Assembly (NCBI GenBank): GCA_002746975.1
Contig: NVXE01000007.1
Location: 1 to 56,613, forward strand
DNA length: 56,613 bases
Reading direction: 5' to 3'
DNA from: Bacteroidota bacterium
Lineage (GTDB): Bacteria; Bacteroidota; Bacteroidia; Flavobacteriales_D; Sanyastnellaceae
The position numbers were made by a program, and so were the translations under genes. How positions within the stretch are numbered: position 1 is the first letter of the stretch; every line of letters begins with the position of its first letter. This document shows, piece by piece, positions 32,632 to 39,626 of the stretch. Under the pieces are notes generated by a model, which did not search any database, was not told the origin of the DNA, and was given only the letters and a program-made list of their open reading frames with translations.

Positions 32632-32639
32632 TATATTTG
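32632..32639 (+). promoter_or_regulatory. -7 element TATATTTG for the thioredoxin-like gene
   Basis: A perfect TAnnTTTG just after the murA stop, 12 nt before the ATG at 32652. The in-frame TTG at 32637 is part of this element and so is not the start codon. Confidence 0.6.
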
Positions 32640-32651
32640 AAAGAGATTAGA

Positions 32652-33269
32652 ATGACACAGTTAAAGAAAAAGAAGATGATTTTTAAATCAGCAATAGTAA
32701 TGGTAGGGGTAGCATTGGTTACTTGGACAGGTTTAGTGGGAGCTTCGCCAGCATCTGAGTACGAAGGTGTAATAGAACTTACAGGGTCTTTCGATATAGT
32801 ACCTACGGGAAGAGTAGGGACTAACATCGGGGACGAGGCTCCGAATATTAACATGAACAACACTAAGGGAAAGAAAATGAATCTAAACGACCTTAGAGGA
32901 AGTATAGTTCTAGTTGATTTCTGGGCTTCTTGGTGTGGACCTTGCAGGAGAGAGAATGCTAACGTAGTAAAAGCATACGATAAATATCGCAAAGCAAAAT
33001 TCAAAAATGCAGAAGGCTTTGAAATATTTTCAGTTTCTCTAGATTCTAAGATTTCCTCATGGGAAGCTGCTATTAAGAAAGACGATCTTAAGTGGGATTA
33101 TCACGTTAGTGATCTTAAAAAATGGCAAAATGAAGCAGCTGCAATGTATGGGGTTAGCTCTATTCCGATGAGTTTTCTACTCGATGAGAATGGAATAATC
33201 GTTGCAAAAGATTTACGAGGATTTGAGCTTCATAGACACATAGATAAATTCGTTAAAAGTTTTAAGTAG
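32652..33269 (+). CDS. TlpA-like thioredoxin-fold protein, exported
   Basis: A 205-residue envelope thioredoxin. An N-terminal signal or anchor (about 9-30) is followed by the TlpA/ResA-type domain with active site VDFWASWCGPCRRENANVV (about 90-108) and the cis-Pro loop VSSIPMSFLLDENG. It would reduce or shuffle periplasmic disulfides, for example in cytochrome maturation. The ATG at 32652 fits the promoter position and the signal peptide. It stands alone between murA and the grpE region. Confidence 0.87.
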   Translation: MTQLKKKKMIFKSAIVMVGVALVTWTGLVGASPASEYEGVIELTGSFDIVPTGRVGTNIGDEAPNINMNNTKGKKMNLNDLRGSIVLVDFWASWCGPCRRENANVVKAYDKYRKAKFKNAEGFEIFSVSLDSKISSWEAAIKKDDLKWDYHVSDLKKWQNEAAAMYGVSSIPMSFLLDENGIIVAKDLRGFELHRHIDKFVKSFK

Positions 33270-33294: not shown

Positions 33295-33339
33295 ACGACA
33301 GCCTGTCGGTTTGCAAGAAGCGGACTGACAGGCTGTCGT
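33295..33339. promoter_or_regulatory. Twin 13-bp palindromes upstream of grpE, possible activator site
   Basis: CGACAG-C-CTGTCG at 33296-33308 (perfect dyad) and TGACAG-G-CTGTCG at 33326-33338 (one mismatch), centres 30 bp apart, i.e. about three helical turns. The two boxes can also pair with each other as a 13-bp stem (33295-33307 with 33327-33339) followed by TATTTTATT, so a weak terminator for the upstream gene is the alternative reading. They lie about 25-70 bp upstream of the sigma-54-like promoter. Confidence 0.5.
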
Positions 33340-33361
33340 ATTTTATTGAAATCTTCTTTAA

Positions 33362-33376
33362 TGGCACTTACTTTGC
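33362..33376 (+). promoter_or_regulatory. Sigma-54-type -24/-12 promoter before grpE-dnaJ
   Basis: TGGCAC-TTACT-TTTGC style element: GG at 33363-33364 and GC at 33375-33376 with exactly 10 bp between, as in the sigma-54 consensus TGGCAC-N5-TTGC. The predicted start is about 33388, 18 nt before the grpE ATG. An overlapping housekeeping reading exists: TTG (33346-33348)-N19-TTACTTTG (33368-33375). Confidence 0.55.
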
Positions 33377-33405
33377 CCTTCCTTTAGACCAAACAATTTA
33401 AGACG

Positions 33406-33948
33406 ATGAACAATCAAGATAATACAGTCGAAAAGAAGGAGGAGGAGCTAGAAATGGCGGCTGAGAACTCGAATGAATGTAAAGACGACTGTGATAGTGG
33501 AGATGAGGAAACAAAAGCCGAGGAAGAGGTAGTTGACTATCAAGATAAGTACCTAAGGCTTTATGCTGAGTTCGATAATTTTAGAAAGCGCACGATGAGG
33601 GAGAGAGCTGACTTAATTCGCACTGCTTCTCAGGACGTACTTGAGAAATTGCTTCCACTACTTGACGATTTCGAGCGAGCTCAGAAAAACTCGAACGATG
33701 ATATCGAGATTATGCGTGAAGGAATGAAATTAATTCATACGAAACTTGACTCTACATTAGCAGCAAAAGGTCTTAAGCCTATGGAAGTTAAAGCTGGGGA
33801 TGTATTCGATGTCGACTTTCATGAAGCAATAACGAATATACCAGCTCCAAGTCCCAAATTAGTAGGAAAAATTGTAGATGTTGTAGAAAGTGGTTATATG
33901 CTAGGTGATAAAGTGCTTAGATATGCGAAAGTAATAATTGGACAATAA
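33406..33948 (+). CDS. grpE: GrpE nucleotide exchange factor
   Basis: A 180-residue DnaK co-chaperone that releases ADP from DnaK. A strongly acidic N-terminus (about 1-45), a long helix with DYQDKYLRLYAEFDNFRKRTMRERADLI, and the C-terminal beta-domain with FDVDFHEAI, VVESGYMLGDKVLRYAKVIIGQ match the family. It is followed by dnaJ after 15 nt. dnaK is not in this window. Likely heat-shock regulated, possibly through the sigma-54-type promoter upstream. Confidence 0.95.
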   Translation: MNNQDNTVEKKEEELEMAAENSNECKDDCDSGDEETKAEEEVVDYQDKYLRLYAEFDNFRKRTMRERADLIRTASQDVLEKLLPLLDDFERAQKNSNDDIEIMREGMKLIHTKLDSTLAAKGLKPMEVKAGDVFDVDFHEAITNIPAPSPKLVGKIVDVVESGYMLGDKVLRYAKVIIGQ

Positions 33949-33963: not shown

Positions 33964-35088
33964 ATGGCAAAAAGAGATTATTACGACACGCTGGGAGTAA
34001 GCAAATCAGCTTCATCTTCTGAAATAAAGAAGGCGTACAGAAAATTAGCATTGAAATATCATCCGGACAAGAATCCTGATGATGCTGGTGCGGAGGAGAA
34101 GTTTAAGGAGGCAGCTGAGGCTTATGAAGTGCTAAGCGACGAGACGAAAAAGCAGCAGTACGATAGGTTTGGTCATGCAGGAATGCGTGGAGCAGCTGGT
34201 GGTGGCGGAGGAGGACATCACATGAATATGGAGGACATTTTCAGCCAATTTGGAGACATATTTGGTGGAGGAGGTGGCGGATTTGGTGGTTTCGGCGGCG
34301 GCGGCGGTGGTCGTAGACGTAGGATGAAGGGGTCTGATCTTAGGATTAAAGTAAAACTTACTTTAGAGGAGGTAGCTACTGGAGCTAAGAAAAAGATTAA
34401 GGTAGCTAAACAGATGCAGGCTGAAGGAGTTGAGCATTCAGATTGTCATCAATGTAACGGTACAGGCCAAATAAGAAGAGTCACTAACACCATTTTAGGT
34501 GCAATGCAAACATCTTCTACCTGCCCTTCTTGTAACGGATCAGGATATTCAATCACCTCAAAACCTTCCGGAACTGACCAGTGGGGTATGAAACGTGAGG
34601 AGCAAGTCGTAACGATAGATATTCCTTCAGGAGTGGAGGATGGAATGCAGTTAAACGTTAGGGGTGAAGGAAATGGAGCGCCTATAGGAGGTGTAGCAGG
34701 AGATTTGCTTGTAGTAATTGAGGTTCTTAAACACGATGCTTTTCAGCGTAATGGCAAGAACCTTCACCATGATCTATACATCAGTTTTATTGATGCTACC
34801 CTAGGCTCTTCAGCCCAAATTCCACTTCTTTCCGGTAAAGCAAAGATTAAAGTGGAGCCAGGAACGCAGAGTGGTAAACTAGTACGGCTAAGAGGTAAAG
34901 GACTTCCTTCTGTCGATTCATATGGAAATGGAGACTTATTGGTGAATATTAATGTTTGGACTCCTAAAAACCTTACAAAAGAAGAACGAAAGACTTTGGA
35001 AAGTTTACGTGAATCGTCGAACTTTCAACCAGAAACTGACCATGACGAACGTGGCTTTTTCGATAAAGTCAACGATTTGTTCTCATGA
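33964..35088 (+). CDS. dnaJ: DnaJ co-chaperone with only zinc centre II
   Basis: A 374-residue Hsp40. J domain 1-70 with His33-Pro34-Asp35, a Gly/Phe-rich linker (about 79-116), a shortened cysteine region and the C-terminal substrate domains. Standard DnaJ has four CxxCxGxG motifs; only two remain, Cys161-HQ-Cys164 and Cys187-PS-Cys190. Their 26-residue spacing matches motifs 2 and 3 (zinc centre II). Motif 1 is replaced by [12 protein letters not shown] and motif 4 by [18 protein letters not shown]. It overlaps the ABC ATPase gene by 4 nt. Confidence 0.92.
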
Positions 35089-36023
35089 TAAATACCCCAG
35101 CTCTTAGACTTACCAACGTAAGTAAAAAATACGGTAATCATACAGCTTTAGCAGGTGTAAGTTTAGAAGTTCCTCAGGGTAGTATTTTCGGATTGCTAGG
35201 ACCAAACGGAGCGGGAAAAACCACTTTAATCAGAATGGTGGCTGGTATTACGGGCCCTGATAGTGGTGAGGTAGAGTTTTTCGGCAGACCATTATCAAGT
35301 AACGATATTCATTCTATAGGGTATCTTCCTGAGGAGAGAGGACTCTACAAGAATATGCGAGTGGGTGAACAAGCAATGTATTTTGCTAGACTTCGCGGGA
35401 TGACTAAAGAAAAAGCAGAGAGAGAATTGAGAGGATGGTTCGATAGACTTGAGGTTGATGGTTGGTGGGATAGAGAAGTTGCCGATTTAAGTAAGGGAAT
35501 GGCTCAAAAGATTCAATTTATCGTAGCTGTTCTTCACAAGCCCAAATTCCTTATTCTGGATGAGCCATTAAGTGGTTTTGATCCTATTAACGCGGCACGT
35601 ATAAGGACTGAGATAAACCGTTTAAGGGATGATAATGGTACTACAATAATGTTATCCACTCACGACATGGCTAGTGTAGAGGAGCTTTGTGACCATGTAG
35701 CTCTGATAGATCACGGTTCAAAAATTCTAGATGGAGAGGTTGATTTTTTAAGAGAAAAAACTAGAGAAGGTAAGATAAACCTAAAGTTTCGTGGGAATTT
35801 AATAAGCTTTACAGCTGCTCTAGGTTCGAGTGCTATTCTTCATAATTCGGTGAGTTATGGAGATAATATTCACGATGTTGTTTTAGGCCTACCTTCTTCT
35901 ATTCCTATTGAGAAATTTATCAAATGGATATCTTCTGAAGTTGATGTTCTTTCATGTACTCCTAGAATTATTTCTATGGACGAAGTATTTCTACAAGCAG
36001 TTAATAATTCTGAAGCATCATGA
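35085..36023 (+). CDS. ABC transporter ATP-binding protein (NatA-like)
   Basis: A 312-residue ABC ATPase: Walker [14 protein letters not shown] (about 40-52), signature [12 protein letters not shown], Walker [14 protein letters not shown], and switch His in [12 protein letters not shown], followed by an about 80-residue C-terminal extension. It overlaps dnaJ upstream and the permease downstream by 4 nt each, so all are one operon. The NatA/B-type pair usually exports small ions or molecules; the substrate is not known. Confidence 0.9.
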
Positions 36024-37360
36024 AACGTTGGTTACTAGTTGTAGGTAGAGAGTATAAAACAAGAGTTAGAAAACGTGCTTTTATTATTTCAACTTTACTT
36101 GGACCTTTTCTAATGGTGGGACTGGTTGCACTAATGGTTTTTATTGCAACTTCAACTACAGAGTCTGATTCAAAAGTTCTTGTAGTTGACCACAGTAGTA
36201 TTCTTACATATAGTTTACCTGGAGAGGACGATGTACGACTGCCTAGCTGTTCTGAATGCTTTCCAGAAAGAGATTTTCTCGAGTATAGATTTACGAATAC
36301 GCCACTAACTACGGAGGAATTTATTGAGAGTGATTATACAGCAATGTTAGAACTCGACGATGGTGTTCTACAAAGTGCTAAGGCATTGCTTAAGTATGAA
36401 ATGGCAGCTTCGACGAAAGTTAAGTCAGCACTTAAGCGTGATTTGGGTGAGGCTATTGAAAGGTTGAGAGTGAAAAATGAATCTTCATTAGATTACGAAA
36501 CCTATAAACGTCTTAAAGTACGCGTGGGTTTGGTTACACAAGATATAATTACACAGGATAAAAATATTGAAAGCCAAAGCTGGATAGGATTTGTTTTTTC
36601 TATTTTCATGTTCATGTTTATCTTAATATATGGGATGCATGTGATGCGTGGAGTGATAGAGGAGAAAAGTAATAGAATTGTTGAAGTTGTTATTAGTGTG
36701 ATAAAACCTGAAGCTTTGATGGGGGCGAAAATGATGGGAATAGGTCTATTAGGACTAACTCAAATCGTTATTTGGTATATGCTATCATGGGTGTTGTTTA
36801 TAGGTTTCGGATTTTATGTTGAATCAACGGGCTTGCTTCAGGAGTTTATAGGAGATCAAGGTTCCCAAATATCAGCAACTGATTTTATGACTTTTATTGA
36901 GTCAGACAGCGATTTAGGAGTTTTACTACAAGTTGATTGGGCTATGATGCTCGGGTGGGGGGCTTTCTTTTATGTAGCAGGTTTTGCATTATACTCATCA
37001 TTATTCGCAGCCGTTGGTGCAGCCGTTGAACAGGAGTCGGATGCACAGTATCTATTAGTACCTGCGATGATGCCTCTGATATTTAGTTATTTAGTTAACG
37101 TTTTTATTATGGAATCACCTGATAGCACTTTGGCTATATTTTGCTCTTTCTTTCCTTTTACATCACCCATAACCATGATGGTTAGATTAAGTGTTGGGGT
37201 TCCATGGTGGCATGTTGCTATAAGTGCCCTTATTTTAGTTGTTACAGTTTATTTCATGGTGAAACTTGCAGGAAAGATTTATAGAACGGGAATCTTGATG
37301 TATGGTAAAAACCCCACATTTAGAGAACTTGCTCGTTGGTTGATGTATAAGAACAGGTAA
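36020..37360 (+). CDS. ABC-2 type transporter permease (NatB-like)
   Basis: A 446-residue membrane protein: TM1 (about 17-42), a large extracytoplasmic domain (about 45-185), then five or six helices (about 192-425). The segment MHVMRGVIEEKSNRIVEVVISVIKPEALMGAKMMGIG is the conserved intracellular stretch of ABC-2/NatB permeases. It pairs with the preceding ATPase (4-nt overlap), and its TAA overlaps the next ATG by 1 nt. Confidence 0.88.
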   Translation: MKRWLLVVGREYKTRVRKRAFIISTLLGPFLMVGLVALMVFIATSTTESDSKVLVVDHSSILTYSLPGEDDVRLPSCSECFPERDFLEYRFTNTPLTTEEFIESDYTAMLELDDGVLQSAKALLKYEMAASTKVKSALKRDLGEAIERLRVKNESSLDYETYKRLKVRVGLVTQDIITQDKNIESQSWIGFVFSIFMFMFILIYGMHVMRGVIEEKSNRIVEVVISVIKPEALMGAKMMGIGLLGLTQIVIWYMLSWVLFIGFGFYVESTGLLQEFIGDQGSQISATDFMTFIESDSDLGVLLQVDWAMMLGWGAFFYVAGFALYSSLFAAVGAAVEQESDAQYLLVPAMMPLIFSYLVNVFIMESPDSTLAIFCSFFPFTSPITMMVRLSVGVPWWHVAISALILVVTVYFMVKLAGKIYRTGILMYGKNPTFRELARWLMYKNR

Positions 37361-38397
37361 TGGAAGGATCTGGGAGAAAAAAGGACATTAGGCTCAGAAG
37401 AGTTGCCGTGATTGATTGTGGGACAAATACTTTTAATCTTCGTGTTGTAGACCTATTAAATGTTGAAGACCCTAAATTAAGACCCTGGATTAAAGTGTTT
37501 AGTTTAAGACTACCTGTTAGATTAGGAAAAGGAGGTATAGGCAAGGGTGTGATAAGACCTGATAGGATAGCTAGAGGTCTTGATGCAATAGGTATTATGC
37601 ATGAAATTCTTAGGAATTATAAAGCAGATGAAGTTTATGTATTAGCAACTAGTGCTCTTCGCGATGCGTCTAATAGTAGTGTTTTTACTGAAGGTGTGCT
37701 GAGTCGGTTCGGTTATAAAGTCCAAATCATATCTGGGACCACTGAAGCGACTCTGATTCAGGAAGGCATAAAACTTACTTACACTACACCTAAAGATGAA
37801 ACAGTATTAACAATGGATATTGGAGGAGGTAGTACTGAGTGTATTATATGGAATAGTAAAGAAGTTGTTTGGGCTAGAAGCTTTGATGTGGGGGTAGCAA
37901 GGTTACAAGAGTTATTTAAAATGTCAAATAAATTCGGAGAGGATGCATATGAAAAAATGTTTCCATACTTGAGTGATATATTCGAACCATTGAAGACAGC
38001 ATTATCTAACACTAAACCAACAATTTTAGTTGGGTCTAGTGGGTCATTTGATACATTCTATTCAATTACTAAAGAGAAAGGTAAATTAAAAGTATCTCGA
38101 GATGAAAAGGCTGATAATAATGTGTTTAAACAATCACACCCTAGAGCAAACGAAATAGATATTGATAAATTTAATTCACTTGCTGAGATCATAATACGCA
38201 ACACTCTTAGCGATAGGCTCAACATGAACGGAATGCCTCCAGACCGCGCAGATTTCATTCCTTATGCCGCGGCTATTGTTAAATGGGTTCAAAGCGAGAT
38301 ACATTTAGATAAGTTTTTTCGTTCGAAATATGCAATTAGGGAAGGAGTTCTTAATCGATTAGCAAATGGTGAGGATGCAATACCGGGTGTGGCATAG
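37360..38397 (+). CDS. Ppx/GppA family phosphatase
   Basis: A 345-residue actin-like (ASKHA) phosphatase acting on polyphosphate or guanosine pentaphosphate. Phosphate 1 motif VAVIDCGTNTFNLRVVDL at the N-terminus, phosphate 2 motif TMDIGGGSTECIIW (about 148-161), and GTTEATLIQEGIKL in between. It is shorter than E. coli Ppx/GppA (about 500) because it lacks the C-terminal HD-like part, as is common in Bacteroidota. It is coupled to the permease gene (TAATG) and lies in the grpE-dnaJ run, so stress-linked control is plausible. Confidence 0.87.
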   Translation: MEGSGRKKDIRLRRVAVIDCGTNTFNLRVVDLLNVEDPKLRPWIKVFSLRLPVRLGKGGIGKGVIRPDRIARGLDAIGIMHEILRNYKADEVYVLATSALRDASNSSVFTEGVLSRFGYKVQIISGTTEATLIQEGIKLTYTTPKDETVLTMDIGGGSTECIIWNSKEVVWARSFDVGVARLQELFKMSNKFGEDAYEKMFPYLSDIFEPLKTALSNTKPTILVGSSGSFDTFYSITKEKGKLKVSRDEKADNNVFKQSHPRANEIDIDKFNSLAEIIIRNTLSDRLNMNGMPPDRADFIPYAAAIVKWVQSEIHLDKFFRSKYAIREGVLNRLANGEDAIPGVA

Positions 38398-38447: not shown

Positions 38448-39626
38448 ATGTCACATATTTTAATTATAGATGACGAGAAACCTATTCGCGCTAGTTTACG
38501 TGAAATTTTGGAGTATGAAGGGCACACTATAGAGGAGGCTGAGGATGGTGCTGACGGTGTGATTTTAGCCCAAAAAAGACAATTCGATGTCGTCTTTTGT
38601 GATATTAAAATGCCACGCATGGATGGTATTGATGTTCTTGATATGTTCGAGAAGAAGAATATAACATCCCCAGTAATAATGATATCTGGTCATGGGACTG
38701 TCGATACTGCTGTGCAAGCTTTAAAAAAAGGAGCATTCGATTTTATACAGAAGCCACTAGATTTAAATCGAATTTTACTGACGCTAAAGCATGCTACTGA
38801 AAAGCAAGAATTAGTTAAAGAGACTAAGCTTTTAAGGAAAAAGGTACACGGATCTAAATCTCATCCTATAATTGGTAATTCGGATGCAATTAAAGAAATT
38901 CTGGAAATGGTCTCGACCGTGGCAGCTACCGACGCTCGAGTTTTAATTACGGGAGGCAACGGTACTGGAAAAGAATTGGTGGCTCGCCAACTACATGATG
39001 GAAGTAATAGATCAAATGGAGCCTTTATTGAAGTAAACTGTGCAGCGATACCGTCTGAACTTATCGAAAGTGAGCTCTTTGGACATGAAAAAGGTTCTTT
39101 TACAAGTGCGATAAAACAAAGGAAAGGAAAATTTGAACAAGCTAATGGCGGTACTCTATTTCTAGATGAAGTTGGGGATATGGGGTCAGACGCTCAAGCA
39201 AAAGTTTTAAGGGCGCTGCAAGAAAATCGCATTACTCGAGTTGGTGGCGAAAAGGATATTCAAGTTGACGTGAGAGTAGTTGCCGCGACGAATAAGGATC
39301 TTAGACATGAAATTTCAGAAGGTAGATTCAGAGAAGATTTATATCATAGACTAGCTGTAATACCTATACACATTCCGTCATTAAATAATAGAAGAGAGGA
39401 TATTCCGCTTTTAGTTGAACATTTTCTAAAACTTCTTGCAGAAGATAGCGGAATGCCTATACCTAAAGTTGAAAAGGCAGCAATGACTCTTATATGTAAA
39501 GCAGATTGGACTGGAAACGTAAGAGAACTGCGAAATGTCGTTGAAAGATTGCTAATACTCACACCTTCAGGTAGTTCTATTTCCCCTGAAATAGTCAGTA
39601 AATACGCACATCTAACAAGTTTATAG
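38448..39626 (+). CDS. NtrC-family response regulator lacking a DNA-binding domain
   Basis: A 392-residue two-domain protein: receiver domain (about 1-120) with Asp8-Asp9 and phospho-acceptor Asp52 (FCDIKMPRMDG), then a sigma-54-activator AAA+ domain with Walker A GGNGTGKELVARQLH, Walker B GGTLFLDEVGDM and the arginine-finger region REDLYHRLAVIPI. The GAFTGA loop that contacts sigma-54 reads GSFTSA. The chain stops about 25 residues after WTGNVRELRNVVERLLIL, so the usual C-terminal Fis-type helix-turn-helix is absent. It may act from solution or through a partner. The cognate kinase is not in the window. Confidence 0.88.
   Translation: MSHILIIDDEKPIRASLREILEYEGHTIEEAEDGADGVILAQKRQFDVVFCDIKMPRMDGIDVLDMFEKKNITSPVIMISGHGTVDTAVQALKKGAFDFIQKPLDLNRILLTLKHATEKQELVKETKLLRKKVHGSKSHPIIGNSDAIKEILEMVSTVAATDARVLITGGNGTGKELVARQLHDGSNRSNGAFIEVNCAAIPSELIESELFGHEKGSFTSAIKQRKGKFEQANGGTLFLDEVGDMGSDAQAKVLRALQENRITRVGGEKDIQVDVRVVAATNKDLRHEISEGRFREDLYHRLAVIPIHIPSLNNRREDIPLLVEHFLKLLAEDSGMPIPKVEKAAMTLICKADWTGNVRELRNVVERLLILTPSGSSISPEIVSKYAHLTSL

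Follow-up and report, generated by a model that had tools for sequence, protein, structure and literature searches.

The window, that is, the whole 56,613-nucleotide stretch of DNA that was analyzed, carries on its plus strand a run of genes that begins with grpE (33406-33948, 180 aa; PF01025, with NCBIfam GrpE models matching below their curated cut-offs) and dnaJ (33964-35088, 374 aa). The run continues with genes for an ABC transporter ATPase (35085-36023; PF00005), an ABC-2 type permease (36020-37360; PF12698), and a Ppx/GppA-family phosphatase (37360-38397; PF02541), and ends with the gene for EBP1 (38448-39626), a protein with a receiver domain and an AAA+ activator domain. The transporter pair and the phosphatase gene (35085-38397), lying between dnaJ and EBP1, possibly extend the chaperone operon. 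On the same strand upstream of grpE lies a ResA/TlpA-like thioredoxin-fold gene (32637-33269; NCBIfam matches below curated cut-offs), whose stop codon is 25 nt from the hairpin described below.

The sequence TGGCACTTACTTTGC (TGGCAC-TTACT-TTGC) occupies positions 33362-33376 of the plus strand. As had been described in the original prediction, its GG (33363-33364) and GC (33375-33376) are separated by 10 bp; the ATG of grpE follows at 33406, and the transcription start site is predicted at approximately 33388. TGGCACN5TTGC was found exactly nowhere else in the window; with one mismatch allowed, 3 matches were obtained, 1 of them exact, and 1.94 were expected by chance. The relatives set comprised 60 genomes, including that of the window, and grpE was obtained from 12 of the 14 members of the window's genus. 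All 12 carried TGGCAC-N5-TTGC, and with it the GG-N10-GC box, before grpE. The rpoN gene was present in 58 of the 60 genomes searched, among them the own genome (C5:11921-12394, a 488-aa ORF), and HrcA was detected in 1 of the 60 (G046:C176:8908-9444) and was absent from the own genome. These findings agree with the earlier proposals of sigma-54-dependent transcription and of a scheme other than that of HrcA, and suggest that the grpE promoter is very likely of the sigma-54 type.

Two candidate operator dyads lie upstream of this promoter. The proximal dyad, TGACAGGCTGTCG (33326-33338), is centered at approximately -56 and lies 24 bp before TGG, and the distal dyad, CGACAGCCTGTCG (33296-33308), is centered 30 bp further upstream at approximately -86, with a gap of 54 bp to TGG. 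The dyad cores are GACAGCCTGTC (33297-33307) and GACAGGCTGTC (33327-33337), and their centers at 33302 and 33332 bear out the 30-bp spacing originally reported. Both had been described as 13-bp dyads; CGACAG-C-CTGTCG is indeed a perfect 13-mer, but the second is perfect only as an 11-mer, its outer T and G being unpaired. The two dyads are also reverse complements of one another, a relation overlooked by the earlier reader. In the window, GACAGNCTGTC occurred exactly only at these dyads (3 matches with one mismatch allowed, 2 of them exact; chance mean 0.96), and in the 2.39-Mb genome it occurred exactly at 4 places, two of which are the window dyads. The remaining two exact dyads (C7:135046 and C10:37127; L069 and L070) were rejected as sites because both lie within ORFs. 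The window dyads together can form a single 20-pair hairpin on the plus strand (33295-33339) with the loop AAGAA and an energy of -38.6 kcal/mol (z -9.55; shuffled mean -14.5), and a terminator scan classed this hairpin as terminator-like.

Two dyads with 0 or 1 mismatch were present before grpE in all 12 genus members read. Eight members carried two exact dyads, G006 carried one exact and one mismatched dyad, and G003, G008, and G012 carried two dyads with 1 mismatch each. The spacing was 30 bp in ten members and 20 bp in G003 and G012, and the stretch between dyads and promoter was variable in sequence. An exact dyad and an exact -24/-12 promoter occurred jointly in 9 of the 60 genomes, all nine belonging to the same genus and all at grpE, and the reversed joint pattern yielded 0 matches in the 60 genomes. 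The long hairpin formed in 9 of the 12 members, G003, G008, and G012 being the exceptions, and since the dyads fold into one hairpin in the genus, the element may double as a terminator of the upstream gene. The stem of the genus hairpin was stable and contained GC, and its T tract was weak (tails GTTT or ATTTTATT). Because 0 of the 17 pairs had changed on both sides, operator and hairpin are not separable by covariation in the genus.

The element was further examined across the order. The grpE gene was found in 56 of the 60 genomes, and 52 genomes from 38 genera were used, each with a scored -24/-12 site and 70 nt of upstream DNA; the other 4 were left out for a weak -24/-12 score or less than 70 nt of upstream DNA. 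The score weights were our own, and doubtful or coding-looking -24/-12 picks were kept (grpE in G045 and G023; groES in G003, G045, and G055). With one genome taken for each genus, TGNCANNNTGNC was present within 70 nt upstream of TGG in 32 of the 38 genera, whereas 200 dinucleotide shuffles of the grpE regions averaged 0.15 and never exceeded 2. The gap to TGG was 13 or 14 bp at 28 sites, 24 or 25 bp at 4, and 37 bp at one, and sites with 1 mismatch added gaps of 34-58 bp that clustered near 44 and 53-54 bp. An unprompted count of spaced 4-mer palindromes ranked GACA-N3-TGTC highest at grpE, with 12 genera compared with 3 for the runner-up, and tied first at lon (2 genera), and at groES the palindrome was outside the top eight.

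The grpE sites matching 6-7 of 7 positions were phased at 10.5 bp with R 0.81 (a value reached by 0 of 2000 random sets), and the distal grpE sites alone gave R 0.56 (22 of 2000 random sets); because the genera do not represent wholly independent samples, these and the other phasing figures given below should not be taken as strict probabilities. The conservation of the dyads and their helical phasing to the -24 box are in line with the activator-site role assigned to them earlier, and the dyads are likely activator sites, as judged by their sequence context.

The original prediction had drawn attention to the NtrC-type protein encoded last in the gene run. A gene for such a protein is correctly placed at 38448-39626, but EBP1 lacks a helix-turn-helix (HTH) domain: no HTH family was found at its C terminus at E 0.001 in Pfam, and its loop reads GSFTSA instead of GAFTGA. 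Nine EBP1-like proteins of relatives were compared. Eight of them (L247-L252, L254, L255) likewise have a receiver domain, an AAA+ domain and a lid, no HTH, and GAFTSA, and five of these eight share a contig with grpE; the ninth (G046, L253), which is truncated at a contig end and does not lie on the contig carrying grpE, differs in possessing an HTH and GAFTGA. Activators without DNA-binding domains occur in many Bacteroidetes (PMC3372290). The predicted domain content contradicts a role of EBP1 as a DNA-binding activator, and it was rejected as the dyad binder. EBP2, which is encoded elsewhere in the genome, therefore appears to be the better candidate activator.

The own genome contains five PF00158 matches, of which two are true activators (EBP1 and EBP2), the three weaker matches being two Clp-type ATPases and one MgsA-type ATPase. 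EBP2 (G000:C8:156340-157605) is the only one of the two activators with an HTH. It comprises an AAA+ domain with GAFTGA and a Fis HTH (PF02954) and has no receiver domain (no PF00072); its sigma-54 domain covers residues 12-179, approximately 120 residues separate the AAA+ lid from the C-terminal HTH, and PspF structures match its AAA+ part. The loop was GAFTGA in 32 and GSFTGA in 32 of 70 relatives, with neither read in 6. Among same-class relatives, 53 of 60 had the HTH sequence ISERTLYRKIK without a change, compared with 1 of 9 readable other-class relatives, the class being Bacteroidia. In the own genome, EBP2 lies in the operon miaB-EBP2-lptE-TPR-secG-groES-groEL, in which the miaB-like gene and lptE were named by domain and TPR, secG, groES, and groEL by reading. 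Both groES and groEL were found downstream of EBP2 in 35 of 40 neighborhoods, 2 of the other 5 being truncated, and groES-groEL followed EBP2 in 47 of 61 long-enough loci of named records, a set that overlaps the 40 neighborhoods. EBP2 was found in 57 of the 60 genomes and was not found in G010, G013, and G043, the last of which scored 100% complete. In a phylum sample, EBP2 matches at 1e-85 were obtained in 161 of 247 genomes, 58 of them same-class, and no same-class genome was among the unmatched genomes listed (20 of 86).

A copy of the operator was identified before the EBP2 operon itself. The region upstream of miaB could be assessed at 60 of 70 loci and at 44 of 80 named-record loci, the rest having no complete start with enough upstream DNA. 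Exact TGNCANNNTGNCA preceded miaB in the own genome. Counted by group, it did so in all 9 genomes of the genus, in 23 of 29 from the order, in 16 of 18 from the class, and in 1 of 4 from other classes; shuffles gave at most 1 per group, and 2 of 232 intra-operon control regions were positive. Of the 56 same-class genomes, 48 thus had the operator and 8 lacked it, as did 3 of the 4 other-class genomes. Among the named-record loci, 35 of 44 were positive, for example in Brumimicrobium and Lutibacter, and 9 were negative; no operator was found within 2.2 kb upstream of EBP2 in the named Geofilum, Sunxiuqinia, Plebeiobacterium, Barnesiella, and Gaoshiqia loci. The dyad ended 15-20 bp before a TAnnTTTG motif in 44 of 49 sites, so that it overlaps what is presumably the position of the sigma-A -33 region of the miaB promoter. 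PMC9723704 gives TAnnTTTG as the -7 box for sigma-A. The simplest reading of an operator at this position would be negative autoregulation by EBP2. By genomic association, EBP2 is the probable binder of the dyads.

The same element was also sought at lon, dnaK, and groES. A degenerate dyad-plus-promoter pattern had three matches in the own genome, namely grpE, lon, and a coding-like sequence. The last match (RGGIYDQAGGGFA, C8:253231-253280) was rejected because it reads as a conserved coding stretch, and it calls for caution in searches by pattern only. In 101 family genomes, the pattern yielded 63 matches in 42 genomes versus 6 for the reversed pattern, among the matches listed.

The lon gene was retrieved for 30 of the 60 genomes, and 28 of the 30 loci were kept. 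Upstream of its own-genome copy stand TGACACGCTGTCA and, downstream of that and 25 nt from the ATG, TGGCACGCACCTTGC (G000:C11:164500-168000, L110, dyad at 1535). A dyad-plus-promoter match at lon was present in 13 of the 14 genus members and absent from G003, and the motif is a single dyad at lon in the genus, as it is at miaB. Beyond the genus, the sigma-54 box of lon was kept and the operator was weak; the full element was present in 4 of 20 genera, a count that includes the window's genus, and seven sites were phased with R 0.87 (8 of 2000 random sets).

At dnaK, retrieved for 50 of the 54 genomes having the gene, the own operator is GACAGGGTGTC. The -24/-12 score was at least 14.7 in 30 of 36 genera versus 3% of shuffles, and the -12 box was mostly TTGA (26 of 36). 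TGNCA quintets numbered 127, compared with 25 in shuffles, and the full element was present in 9 of 36 genera (shuffle mean 0.34, maximum 4), with the ten full (7/7) sites phased at R 0.80 (1 of 2000 random sets). At groES, for which 43 of 47 loci were kept, the own operator is TGACAATTTGTCG. The full element was found in 7 of 35 sequences, each representing one genus or class-level locus (shuffle mean 0.22, maximum 3), GA replaced GC in 24 of the 35, and sites matching 6-7 of 7 positions were phased at 10.5 bp with R 0.75 (reached in 0 of 2000 random sets). The phases of the grpE, groES, lon, and dnaK sites agreed, at 1.9 to 3.0 bp. Judged by sequence, the element is weaker at lon, dnaK, and groES than at grpE, whereas it is strong ahead of miaB.

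Operator and hairpin also coincide at groES. In genomes beyond the genus, the motif lies within the hairpin downstream of secG: a stem arm supplies one quintet, and the second is in the loop or adjoins it, as in AAATGTCAGTATG-TCAC-CATACTGACATTT followed by Ts. A terminator was detected in 21 of 26 order-level groES loci, and 13 of these 21 contained exact TGNCANNNTGNCA by hand count; at the class level, 3 of 8 groES loci with a terminator (L194, L195, and L196) had the same layout with different sequences. Hairpins of this kind between secG and groES, containing TGNCA-N3-TGNCA, were observed in several families (L152, L154, L160, L170, L179, and L194-L196). As a lead, the secG-groES hairpin could be a terminator that is also an enhancer, and the two-dyad hairpin of the window may be a composite of the same kind.

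On the basis of these findings, we propose the following model, which as a whole we consider fairly probable. Sigma-54 RNA polymerase would transcribe grpE-dnaJ from the promoter at 33362-33376, and EBP2 would bind the two dyads, which belong to the class TGNCA-N3-TGNCA. From a position one or a few turns of the helix upstream, facing the same side as the -24 box, EBP2 would contact sigma-54 and open the promoter through ATP hydrolysis. EBP2 would also serve lon, dnaK, and groES, and it would bind the operator copy at the sigma-A -33 region upstream of miaB, where repression of its own operon would be the simplest outcome. In this genus, the two-dyad hairpin may additionally terminate the upstream gene. 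The promoter, the operator, the phasing, and the gene neighborhood are read from the DNA, and from them we infer EBP2 as the binder, the direction of autoregulation, the terminator activity, and stress induction. A broader proposal, toward which we are somewhat more doubtful than confident, is that EBP2 is the dedicated, autoregulated chaperone (heat-shock) activator of Bacteroidia, a receiver-less sigma-54 activator encoded with groESL that controls grpE-dnaJ, dnaK, groESL, and lon through phased TGNCA-N3-TGNCA sites, and that these sites have repeatedly become part of the terminator hairpin of the gene upstream, as composite terminator-enhancers. With regard to the original prediction, its observation was confirmed and its interpretation was partly supported.

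The dyads might instead be merely the arms of a terminator for the thioredoxin-like gene, with the sigma-54 promoter driven by other sites or from solution. The stability of the terminator-like 20-pair hairpin, its presence in 9 of 12 genus members, and its location right after the upstream stop codon all favor this explanation. Nevertheless, the tails are weak, G003, G008, and G012 retain two dyads without the long hairpin, the element keeps a fixed phase in other genera, and single dyads stand before lon (in the genus) and miaB, which makes a purely terminating role unlikely. A further explanation is that an unrelated regulator, such as a chaperone repressor, occupies the dyads while a sigma-54 activator works without these sites. 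Such a regulator would suit the overlap of the miaB operator with the sigma-A -33 region, a usual place for repressors, and the argument for EBP2 as the binder is one of genomic association. This explanation is nonetheless rather unlikely: the sites at grpE, groES, and dnaK keep helical register with the -24 box, 48 of 56 same-class genomes have the operator ahead of the EBP2 operon, and ISERTLYRKIK is exact in 53 of 60 same-class EBP2 proteins.

Two other alternatives concern the start site and the activator. The main start could belong to a sigma-A/SM5-type promoter, TACTTTGC, that overlaps the -12 box and fits the SM5 motif TAnnTTGY of PMC9723704; however, TAnnTTGY was present in 6 of 12 genus members versus 12 of 12 for TGGCAC-N5-TTGC, and this overlapping promoter as the main start is very improbable. 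Binding of the dyads by EBP1 would agree with its linkage to grpE and with the similar protein on the grpE contig in G027, G023, G041, G018, and G015, but given the missing HTH in EBP1 and in 8 of the 9 proteins of the relatives, with GAFTSA in the latter, it is the most improbable of these explanations. EBP2 acting through the dyads at the sigma-54 promoter is the reading that we prefer.

In Flavobacterium psychrophilum, start sites with the sigma-54 motif SM4 have been mapped before groES, lon, dnaK, grpE-dnaJ, and htpG (PMC9723704, Table 2), and SM4 genes groES, lon, dnaK, grpE, and htpG share one co-expression cluster in that study. According to the same study, three activator-domain proteins might explain the distinct clusters, the driver of the chaperone cluster being left open, and a probable sigma-54-dependent regulator gene by lptE (THC0290_0733-0732) has its own mapped promoter. 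Chaperone genes of Bacteroidota have also been reported to be enriched for sigma-54 promoters (PMC12316311). Because SM4 promoters at chaperone genes have been published (PMC9723704), the sigma-54 promoter itself is not new; the operator, the assignment of a candidate activator, and the apparent autoregulation would be. The main text of PMC9723704 has 0 occurrences of "palindrom", no operator is named in the text consulted, and among the matches listed, the open-licence PMC titles and abstract openings included no paper naming the operator or assigning the activator. Of the 60 genomes searched, 59 yielded no HrcA, and the published flavobacterial sigma-54 chaperone cluster has no activator assigned in the text consulted. 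With a protein and an operator named, the control of protein quality across a major bacterial class could be put to a direct test in a laboratory flavobacterium, and a terminator doubling as an enhancer, if true, would be an unusual economy of regulatory DNA.

Compared with known systems, the window resembles the SM4 promoters of F. psychrophilum in having a -24/-12 promoter before grpE-dnaJ, and differs in that no operator or activator is assigned to the latter in the text of PMC9723704 that was consulted. EBP1, with its receiver and AAA+ domains, resembles the FlgR-like activators in having no DNA-binding domain (PMC3372290). Unlike these, EBP1 is linked to grpE-dnaJ, and GSFTSA (GAFTSA in eight relatives) replaces GAFTGA. 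The HrcA/CIRCE system likewise has inverted repeats before chaperone genes; however, HrcA was found in 1 of 60 genomes and not in the own genome, and the CIRCE repeat differs in sequence from the window dyads. Activators of the PspF/HrpS type have no N-terminal regulatory domain, and EBP2 is similar to them in its sigma-54 domain near the N terminus, its GAFTGA, its C-terminal Fis HTH, and its lack of a receiver domain. EBP2 differs from them in its location in a groESL operon, in its putative control of chaperone genes, and in the approximately 120 residues between its AAA+ lid and its HTH.
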